Assembly: GCF_000022485.1 (NCBI RefSeq)
Contig: NC_012623.1
Location: 930,001 to 994,000, forward strand
Length of the DNA stretch: 64,000 nucleotides
Direction: 5' to 3'
Origin: Sulfolobus islandicus Y.N.15.51
Lineage (GTDB): Archaea > Thermoproteota > Thermoprotei_A > Sulfolobales > Sulfolobaceae
Position 1 is the first letter of the stretch. Each line of letters begins with the position of its first letter. The position numbers were made by a program, and so were the translations under genes. The notes under the pieces were generated by a model, which was given only the letters and a program-made list of their open reading frames with translations, made no database searches and had not been told where the DNA came from. Below are positions 2,585 to 54,913 of the stretch, one piece after another.

Positions 2585-2834
2585 TTCAATCAAGATATAT
2601 ACTTTTCAGTTTGAATTTAAAATTAAGCATCATGTAAGTATAATCTACTTATACTTTTCACTATCAATAATTATTATAATGATAGTTTTATATAATTATT
2701 ACATGCTATCGAAGTTCTTTATTGCTGATAGAGAAATTCATAATATATTATGTGAAGATTTTTATAGCAGAAGCTGACTTCCTATTCGCCCTAAAGAGCA
2801 AAGTTTTCAGTTATAAACACATTATGATAATGTG

Positions 2835-2923
<89 letters not shown>

Positions 2924-50490: not shown

Positions 50491-50549
50491 AAGGAGCTAC
50501 TGGTTTGAAGAAAAAAATAAATACCTTCCCATTCTCATAATTATACAGT

Positions 50550-50631
<82 letters not shown>

Positions 50632-52983: not shown

Positions 52984-53544
52984 TTAATCTTTAACTATTG
53001 TGATTAAGGAGTACCCTTTTTTTCTCTTTATCGATTCAATTTTAAATCTTTTACCAAATATTTTCTCTATGTTCTCTTCACCCTTATATGCTACTAATTG
53101 CAAGAATCCCTTTTCAACTAGTCTATCATATGATTGGTCTTCAAGTTTTTTTAGAAAATCCACTCCTTTAGAAAGCGGTGGGTTAGAATAAATTGCGTTA
53201 AATTTAACGTCAACGGGAACATTGTCGAAGATGTCTGATTTTAATATTATTGTCCTATTTTCGACTCCATTAAGTTTGGCATTTTTCTTAGCTAACTTTA
53301 TGGCTATGTAGTTTACATCTACCATGTAAACCTTTAGATTAGGGTTTTTTAATGCTAAGTAAATTCCTATGGGCCCATAGCCACAGCCAACGTCTGCCAC
53401 TATTCCGCTTTCCGCTAATTTTATGTTTTCTAAAAGTACTCTTGTCCCCAAGTCTAATTCCTTTTTTGAAAATATCCCCGGGGAGGAGAGAAGGGTTAGA
53501 GGTACACCATTAATTACTTCAAAAATCGCGTATTCATGACTCAT
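52984..53544 (-). CDS. RsmC/YbiN-like class I methyltransferase
   Basis: The 186-residue protein has the SAM-binding motif IVADVGCGYGPIGIYLAL (about residues 42-59), DVNYIAIKLAKKNAKLNG, and the NPPLS catalytic motif near residue 121. Such motifs occur in small-subunit rRNA guanine-N2 methyltransferases. It overlaps the cbf5 stop by 11 bases and is the last gene of an rpl14e-cbf5 operon, consistent with an RNA target. Confidence 0.85.
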   Translation of the reverse strand: MSHEYAIFEVINGVPLTLLSSPGIFSKKELDLGTRVLLENIKLAESGIVADVGCGYGPIGIYLALKNPNLKVYMVDVNYIAIKLAKKNAKLNGVENRTIILKSDIFDNVPVDVKFNAIYSNPPLSKGVDFLKKLEDQSYDRLVEKGFLQLVAYKGEENIEKIFGKRFKIESIKRKKGYSLITIVKD

Positions 53545-54576
53545 GTTTTTTCCATGCTTTCGGATATATATCTCTCTGCATAAAAACTCTACTCAAATTG
53601 ACCACTATACCCTTTTTGGCGTTTTCTAACTCTTTACTATCGATTAATGCGTTACCCGTCGCTACTAATTCCCCCTTAAGTGTTAATACGGCAACTGTAT
53701 CGTTTCTTTTGAAGTTCTGGTAGGCTACTATACCGGGTACTGCTAGTTGTGCACCGTAAGCTAACGCATTTACTGCTGAGTCCTCTATTATAAGTTTGGG
53801 CATTTCACATGTCGCATATTCCATTGGCATAAGTACTCTTCTCAATTCCGTTTCGTCCTTGCAGTTCTTGTATAAGTATATTGCTTCAGAAAGGTCATGT
53901 AGCTTCACTAAATTTGTAGATTCTGTGAAAATCCCTGATCTAGTTCTTCTTAACTCTCTCATGTGTGCCCCACAACCGTAAATTATCCCTATGTCATGGC
54001 ATAATTTTCTCATGTAAGTTCCAGAGTCACAACTTACTCTGAATAGTACTAATTTCTTGTCCATGTCAAGTATTTCTATATCATATATACTTCTAACTCT
54101 CAATCTCCTCTTGACTGATGATCTAACTGGTGGTCTTTGGTATATTTCTCCTTCAAACGATTTTATTATCTTTGTCAATTCCTCTTTATCGTATTCACAG
54201 TGGACTTGCATTACGCATACGTACTCTTTTCCTCCTTTACTTATGTAATTCATTATTTTAGTTGCGTTCTCTATTCCTATCGGTAATACGCCGGTAACTT
54301 TTGGATTACCCCGCCCAGTGAAATGGGCTCCAGGGTCCCCCCATGTCCCGCTTTGTTAACGTTTAACATCTTTTTAATCCAATACGCCACTTCATGACTT
54401 GTTGGTCCGGGAGGTTTATCAAGGTTTATTATTGAGTTTTTTATATGTACGTCTATTGGTCTTTTCTCTGGATAGTATCCGTATGTATCTGATGTCTCAC
54501 TATCTTTTCTTATCTTCCATTCATTTTTATATCCACAAAAATTATCTATTTTGTAAATAAAATCATTTAGAATCAT
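53534..54576 (-). CDS. cbf5: Pseudouridine synthase Cbf5 (dyskerin), interrupted by an archaeal intron
   Basis: Two frames on the minus strand form one gene. Exon 1 (54576-54330) encodes the N-terminus with INLDKPPGPTSHEVAYWIKK and ends in KAGHGGTL. Exon 2 (54306-53534) continues PKVTGVLPIGIENATK, through the TruB core (VSCDSGTYMRKLCHDIG) to a PUA domain. Joining them over a 23-base intron gives 339 residues and restores the motif GTLDPKVTG. Cbf5 is the catalytic subunit of H/ACA ribonucleoproteins. It follows rpl14e by 5 bases. Confidence 0.95.
54307..54329 (-). other. cbf5 pre-mRNA intron with bulge-helix-bulge
   Basis: The RNA around the junction forms an exact bulge-helix-bulge: outer helix GGA/UCC, 3-base bulge GGA, 4-bp central helix CCCU/GGGG, 3-base bulge UAA, and an intronic GCCC/GGGC hairpin. 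Cutting after the second base of each bulge removes 23 bases and joins G with AU, creating the GAT codon of the catalytic Asp. Introns in crenarchaeal cbf5 are established knowledge. Confidence 0.93.
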
Positions 54577-54581
54577 CTAAA

Positions 54582-54872
54582 TCACAATGTTGGTATTTTA
54601 ATCTTTATTCTCTCTTTCATGTACTCTGTTAAACCAGCTTCCTCTATTTTCTTCCTTACTTCCTCATCTGAGGCTCCTTTCTGTATATCTATTTTCTTAT
54701 CAGTTGGTTCTAAATGTAGAATGTTGACTCTTCTTCTTTTAACACCGCTTATATCTTTTGGTCCAGTGACTAATACGAAGTTGTCATCTATTATATCGAC
54801 TATTACGCATTTGCTTCCAGCTTCTCTTCCCTTTACTTTTACACAAATTCTTCCAACTTCAATTGCGGGCAT
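54582..54872 (-). CDS. rpl14e: Ribosomal protein L14e
   Basis: The 96-residue L14e has the KOW-like N-terminus [19 protein letters not shown] and the [20 protein letters not shown] segment. ATG at 54872 is chosen; an upstream in-frame ATG would add four residues not typical of the family. It leads the rpl14e-cbf5-methyltransferase operon. Confidence 0.95.
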
Positions 54873-54913
54873 TTTTAGTCTCACAAAAACTTTTAAGAGG
54901 CTTAAATTTAAGA

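Follow-up and report, generated by a model that had tools for sequence, protein, structure and literature searches.

An intron in cbf5, the gene for the pseudouridine synthase Cbf5, is a known feature of Crenarchaeota, and the present analysis addresses one such intron in Sulfolobus islandicus Y.N.15.51, within a stretch of 64,000 nucleotides of its genome (NC_012623.1, positions 930,001 to 994,000; this entire stretch is hereafter called the window, and coordinates are counted from its first letter). According to the published account (Yokobori 2009, PMC2738675), the crenarchaeal intron lies between the first and the second letters of the codon for an aspartate, the catalytic residue of Cbf5 in the GTLDP motif, and must be spliced out; it spans 16-44 bp, with 23 bp in Sulfolobus shibatae and 22 bp in S. 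solfataricus. In that account, the intron was gained by the ancestor that Desulfurococcales and Sulfolobales share and was later lost in Pyrodictiaceae and Ignicoccus; spliced cbf5 cDNA is reported for related species; the intron is regarded as a possible deletion derivative of larger introns; and the proposal of a regulatory role is traced to 2002. Most of the newly predicted cbf5 motifs are described in the same source as unconventional and as acceptable to the hetero-oligomeric splicing endonuclease. A paper from 2020 states that the role of the intron was not yet known (PMC7714728). Two other systems invite comparison. Archaeal rRNA introns with homing endonucleases have bulge-helix-bulge splicing in common with the cbf5 intron (PMC2738675). 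Translatable introns, that is, those that are length-neutral with respect to the reading frame and free of stops, are avoided in eukaryotes; in Paramecium, this operates mainly through the avoidance of lengths divisible by three and is tied to nonsense-mediated decay and the spliceosome (PMC11334263).

The intron in the window is the known crenarchaeal cbf5 intron: it is identical in kind to those covered in PMC2738675, differing from them in nothing, and its 23 nt fall inside the published size range. What is new belongs to the family level and includes lengths of 13 nt and up to 57 nt, further intronless lineages, a wider taxonomic range and a rule that governs stop codons, none of which form part of the published description as given in that source. 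Every length-neutral cbf5 intron read in the order of the host carries a stop codon in the translated frame. As to the cause of this pattern, the intron is likely constitutive, with selection acting against read-through of the unspliced message.

On the reverse complement, the intron reads AGCCCATTTCACTGGGCGGGGTA (Table 1). Its excision joins the two exons in frame (G|AT) and merges the open frames listed at 54277-54576 and 53534-54253 into a single cbf5 frame that encodes 339 amino acids (aa), with GAT restored as codon 83. The split codon specifies the Asp of GTLDP, which we take to be the catalytic residue. In the unspliced frame, codon 83 is GAG (Glu) and termination follows after 99 aa, the product being cut short by frameshift. 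An earlier note on this DNA, made from the letters alone, had given the coordinates, length and sequence of the intron correctly, along with the 99-residue product, and had rightly stated that cbf5 introns are known in crenarchaea, where they are listed by Yokobori (2009). On sequence grounds, the border of the intron can slide by one base, shifts of 0 and +1 yielding identical mRNA. The identity of the gene is clear: the 339-aa protein scores 486.1 bits with the NCBIfam Cbf5 model NF003280 (cut-off 242) and 448.7 bits with TIGR00425 (cut-off 238.15), and residues 24-338 align to the solved archaeal Cbf5 chain 3lwo_A (E 6e-111), without gaps across GHGGTLDPKV. A PF01509 search of the genome found cbf5 as the only gene. 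The genome also encodes one RtcB and two PF01974 splicing endonuclease proteins with scores above the cut-off, and the products of the latter two genes probably form a hetero-oligomeric endonuclease.

The intron position was compared with that in other cbf5 genes, as the earlier note had suggested, in two sets of genomes from the order of the host. In the first set, 147 genomes were searched, of which 4 gave no match and 6 only weak ones (G031, G076, G098, G100, G117 and G143); 137 genes were taken and 135 proved readable, the other two (L079 and L116) ending at a contig edge before the site. For the second set, family searches yielded 66 new genomes, of which 51 were read and 15 had no match, a weak match or a split gene. 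The choice of genes was blind to intron length and stops, and no selection bias was seen. The reading rule accepts the first fit with the Asp codon split as G|AT or G|AC, so that introns elsewhere in the gene would escape it. With this rule, the first set comprises 109 genes that carry an intron at the site and 26 that are uninterrupted there, and the second set 49 and 2, respectively, so that the same site is occupied in 158 of the 186 genomes and all 28 intronless genes are exact at the site. Intron lengths range from 13 to 57 nt, compared with 16-44 in PMC2738675; the minimum is found in L147 and L158, from one genus, which have little or no inner stem and are perhaps of the bulge-helix-loop type. 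Intronless genes account for 5 of 5 genomes in family f7, 14 of 14 in f8, 2 of 6 in f5, 3 of 41 in f6 and 4 of 34 in f10. All three intronless f6 genomes belong to genus g49, in which three other genomes have the intron. The absences in f5, f6 and f10 look like losses beyond the two published ones.

The 43 introns with lengths divisible by three, from 28 genera, all contain a stop in the translated frame, so that the number of translatable introns among them is zero, whereas the other two frames of the same introns contain stops in only 7 and 4 cases. The first set provided 27 of 27 such introns (5 and 2 in the other frames), and an independent check on the 51 fresh genomes added 16 of 16 (2 and 2). 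In contrast, among the introns with lengths not divisible by three, a stop in the translated frame is present in 65 of 115 (17 and 12 in the other frames; Fisher p 3.5e-9 for the difference between the two length classes). The stops of the length-neutral introns are TAG in 18, TGA in 17 and TAA in 8, and the first of them occurs at codon index 2 to 10. Shuffling of intron interiors leaves a stop in 5.0 of the 27 length-neutral introns of the first set, and swapping of loops between genera leaves one in 8.9 (9.4 with loops of equal length). In a loop-phase control, frame-0 stops were found in 28 of 38, 40 of 59 and 40 of 61 introns for the three phases, with 2 to 12 in the other frames. The bias is present in every G+C class and every length class: in genes with more than 50% G+C, stops occur in 17 of 17 length-neutral and 17 of 37 other introns, and in introns of 13-24 nt, in 11 of 11 and 18 of 46, respectively. 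In a FastTree phylogeny, the length class switches no fewer than 30 times, and in a sign test on 26 independent pairs, the stop went with the length-neutral member in 15.7 pairs on average, against it in none and without difference in 10.3 (median p 3e-5).

For every one of the 158 introns, the unspliced frame terminates no more than 52 codons past the split codon, and for 113 it does so within 10. The unspliced split codon encodes Glu in 149 introns, Val in 4, Gly in 4 and Asp in 1; a readable intron would therefore yield a full-length, presumably dead Cbf5. The single intron that keeps Asp (GAC) in the unspliced message, L162, has a length that shifts the frame, with a stop 15 codons on.

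These patterns can be accommodated by the following scheme, which draws on the literature, general knowledge and the genes present in the genome. The splicing endonuclease would cut the cbf5 pre-mRNA on both sides of the central helix, and RtcB would ligate the exons and so restore the Asp codon; the intron itself would be constitutive ballast at a codon that cannot be spared, not a demonstrated switch. Because archaeal cells lack a nucleus that would shield unspliced RNA from ribosomes, some unspliced cbf5 RNA is probably translated; hence selection would keep the message from being read through. It would do so in two ways, either by a frame-shifting length that leads to an early stop or by an in-frame stop within a length-neutral intron. 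What is most likely avoided in this way is the production of a harmful full-length Cbf5 that carries Glu in place of the catalytic Asp as well as extra residues, and that might still enter H/ACA particles and block them. A role of the stop in aiding splicing by clearing ribosomes off the motif was considered as well.

Comparison of the genes shows that the splice motif is under selection. The four central base pairs are complete in 156 of the 158 introns. When the 8 introns from outside the order that are described below are added, the resulting 166 include compensated helix variants (CTCT/GGAG in 4; CTCT/AGAG, CCTT/AAGG and CCTT/GAGG in 1 each) and variants with G-U pairs (CTCT/GGGG in 4, CCTT/GGGG in 1 and CTCT/AGGG in 1). 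The constraint extends to silent sites of the exon. The Leu codon before the cut ends in A in 149 of 158 genes with the intron vs 12 of 28 without, and the Thr codon ends in C in 150 of 158 vs 9 of 28. Among the 53 intron-containing genes with more than 50% G+C, the third base of this Leu codon is A in 50, compared with 178 of 986 for the CTN codons of the second exon. The window itself has CTG rather than CTA as the Leu codon (54331-54333), a choice seen in 2 of the 158 intron-bearing genes; in a close relative, G209 (L294), the same intron is preceded by CTA.

At the site in the window, a 3-4-3 bulge-helix-bulge can be drawn, with a GGA bulge, the CCCU:GGGG helix, a UAA bulge and a GGA:UCC outer stem. 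The lowest-energy fold of the 47 nt keeps the 5' GGA bulge, extends CCCU:GGGG by an additional A-U pair and replaces the 3' bulge with an internal loop; folds of 61 and 81 nt adopt the same relaxed form. The textbook motif as the most stable fold was thus rejected on refolding of the 47 nt, and the predicted structure is better described as a relaxed variant. Neither energy nor geometry could serve as proof of the motif: the former was rejected because it lies within the range of shuffled sequences, with nothing unusual in the fold energies (z -0.07, -1.49 and -1.10), and the latter because both strands of the window contain 70 loose motif matches, the site included, one other of which has equal G-C pairs. 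A chance origin of the site is excluded because the intron is found there in 158 of 186 genomes, nearly always with all four central pairs. The case for the intron draws its strength from comparison, not from the fold.

Several observations weigh against the view that a well-defined splice motif is combined with selection against read-through. The 3-4-3 drawing has an energy of -15.4 kcal/mol compared with -19.1 for the lowest-energy fold of the same 47 nt, and at 3.7 kcal/mol less stable, the term "textbook" used in the earlier note was too strong. Two of the 158 introns lack the full central helix in the fixed register; these are L104 and L107, from one genus, which end in GGTTAA, miss two of the four central pairs and possibly have a shifted motif. 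All three outer pairs of the textbook form are present in just 45 of the 158. The 23-nt intron of the window contains no internal stop. The sign test was built on FastTree, the weakest tree method of those at hand. A deficit of lengths divisible by three among the introns of the order was looked for and was not significant (43 of 158, p 0.11 vs one third). Finally, frame-shifting introns are too rich in in-frame stops (the 65 of 115 given above), which are unneeded under a model in which only a full-length dead enzyme is avoided; this excess could reflect translation waste or insurance against later changes in length.

Introns at the same site were also found outside the order. The outside sample consisted of 50 loci from named contigs, of which 45 passed the reading rule; among the 5 that failed, four methanogen genes are uninterrupted by eye and L006 gave nothing. 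The loci read comprise 30 without and 15 with an intron, and 7 of the 15 introns are identical to some in the order (L002, L003, L005, L008, L009, L026 and L035). The remaining 8 are distinct, and their labels are given here as in the records, which mostly refer to metagenome bins: L016, L017 and L033 (unplaced), L019 (Thermofilaceae), L020 (Thermoproteales), L022 (Bathyarchaeota bin22, 16 nt), and L038 and L042 (Ca. Pelearchaeum, Caldarchaeales). All 8 have the four central pairs and lengths of 16-23 nt; none of these lengths is divisible by three, so that they offer no test of the stop rule, and 4 of the 8 contain an in-frame stop. For a tree that includes outside genomes, one row was kept per genus and length; 16 outside loci were dropped because the order already covered them or because they were bacterial or poor, as were 10 methanogens and the short row L188. 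On this tree, the presence and absence of the intron require at least 10 state changes. On a tree of 38 rows, 17 outside rows group on one side (100/99), and a constraint that places the Pelearchaeum pair with the order is rejected (approximately unbiased (AU) test, p 0.0002). The cbf5 intron either is older than published or entered the site more than once, and its range appears to reach beyond the published Sulfolobales and Desulfurococcales, which challenges the published date of gain. For archaeal cbf5 introns in general, we consider it likely that they are under translational selection, length-neutral ones holding a stop against a dead full-length Cbf5, and that the intron is older or was gained more often than described, reaching Bathyarchaeota, Caldarchaeales and Thermofilales.

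The location of the intron at the catalytic codon is a question apart from the stop rule, and a single insertion of which only exact removal is tolerated would suffice to account for it. A related possibility, with somewhat less than an even chance of being correct, is that the intron descends from a mobile one and has persisted as a relic in the active-site codon, since the gene still works only if removal is exact. Such an origin can explain the place of the intron and is compatible with the stop rule. It fits the single site of all 158 introns, the exactness of the 28 intronless genes and the use of the same site in the 8 outside genomes, whose genes group apart from the order, and it recalls the suggestion in PMC2738675 that cbf5 introns are deletion derivatives of larger ones. 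However, no homing endonuclease frame was found in the 23-nt intron of the window, in the 158 introns of the order or in the 8 outside introns (16-23 nt), and no large form was seen, the longest intron being 57 nt; unlike the archaeal rRNA introns, the cbf5 introns are thus far shorter and free of such frames. One old gain followed by losses fits as well.

It is unlikely that the intron is a regulated on-switch or negative regulator through which the cell sets the splicing of cbf5 RNA and hence pseudouridylation. The protein is truncated without splicing for all 158 introns, and the losses in f7 and f8 are read in PMC2738675 as a possible escape from down-regulation. Yet the intron interior shows drift in both sequence and size, and nothing like a conserved sensor element was seen among the 158 introns; nor would regulation lead one to expect an association of stops with length class. 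The earlier note had called splicing a strict on-switch for pseudouridylation; splicing is indeed needed for the normal protein, but no result points to regulation. Pseudouridine synthases of kinds other than PF01509 exist, and cbf5 splicing is therefore no switch for all pseudouridylation.

It is improbable that the stops arise incidentally from RNA structure, base composition or common descent and not from translation. The introns do share ancestry and a stem-loop layout, and their loops are richer in A and T, but the other frames of the same introns, with stops in 7 and 4 of 43, speak against this origin, as do the loop-phase, loop-swap, shuffle, G+C and length controls and the independent tree pairs. 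The division of the gene into two open frames could in principle reflect sequencing error, a pseudogene or a programmed frameshift instead of an intron, but this is practically dismissed by the presence of the insertion at one and the same site in 158 genomes, where the helix is preserved and silent sites are constrained, and by the spliced cDNA from related species (PMC2738675).

The absence of exceptions to the stop rule in 43 cases suggests that translation of unspliced mRNA in archaea is frequent enough to have consequences and that the resulting damage is independent of nonsense-mediated decay. Nonsense-mediated decay is not known in archaea, so that, if selection against read-through is indeed the cause, it must be the protein, or the waste of translation as such, that does the harm. 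Avoidance of translatable introns would then extend beyond eukaryotes to cells that have neither a nucleus nor a spliceosome nor nonsense-mediated decay. As among the eukaryotic introns (PMC11334263), length-neutral, stop-free introns are missing from archaeal cbf5; unlike in Paramecium, it is a stop that is kept, and a protein endonuclease performs the splicing. The terms "stop codon" and "in-frame" are absent from the main text of PMC2738675, and a search of the open literature by titles and the beginnings of abstracts, with most subscription journals outside its reach, returned nothing on in-frame stops in archaeal introns and nothing on cbf5 introns outside Crenarchaeota. As far as these searches reach, the stop rule and the wider taxonomic range are new. 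The intron and its placement in the Asp codon are already published; the coupling to the active-site codon, singled out in the earlier note as worth attention, is real, but being in print, it yields that attention to the stop rule.

Table 1. Features of the cbf5 splice site and its surroundings in the window.
Feature	Position	Strand	Remark
cbf5 intron, 23 nt	54307..54329	-	same site in 158/186 genomes
cbf5 exon 1, 247 nt (82 codons and the G of codon 83)	54330..54576	-	
cbf5 exon 2 including the stop codon, starting with the AT of codon 83	53534..54306	-	
Central 4-bp helix, 5' strand CCCT in the Thr and Leu codons	54332..54335	-	
Central helix, 3' strand GGGG inside the intron	54309..54312	-	compensated variants in relatives
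5' bulge GG|A with the first cut site	54329..54331	-	cut after the second bulge base according to PMC2738675
3' bulge TA|A with the second cut site	54306..54308	-	belongs to an internal loop in the lowest-energy fold
Inner stem-loop, 5 bp and 6-nt loop	54313..54328	-	
TAG closing the unspliced frame after 99 codons	54277..54279	-	

Three other features of the window deserve mention. Directly upstream of cbf5, a frame of 100 aa (54582-54884, - strand) contains a KOW motif and has a weak match to L14e that remains under the cut-off. The listed start (50595, + strand) of a frame for a TmcA-like acetyltransferase falls inside the tRNA-Gly gene at 50549-50626, and the true start is probably located further in. 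A tRNA gene at 2834-2922 (- strand) is called tRNA-Pyl by ARAGORN and identified simply as a tRNA by Rfam; by eye, its sequence looks closer to a tRNA-Arg(CCT) whose anticodon is followed by a short intron.
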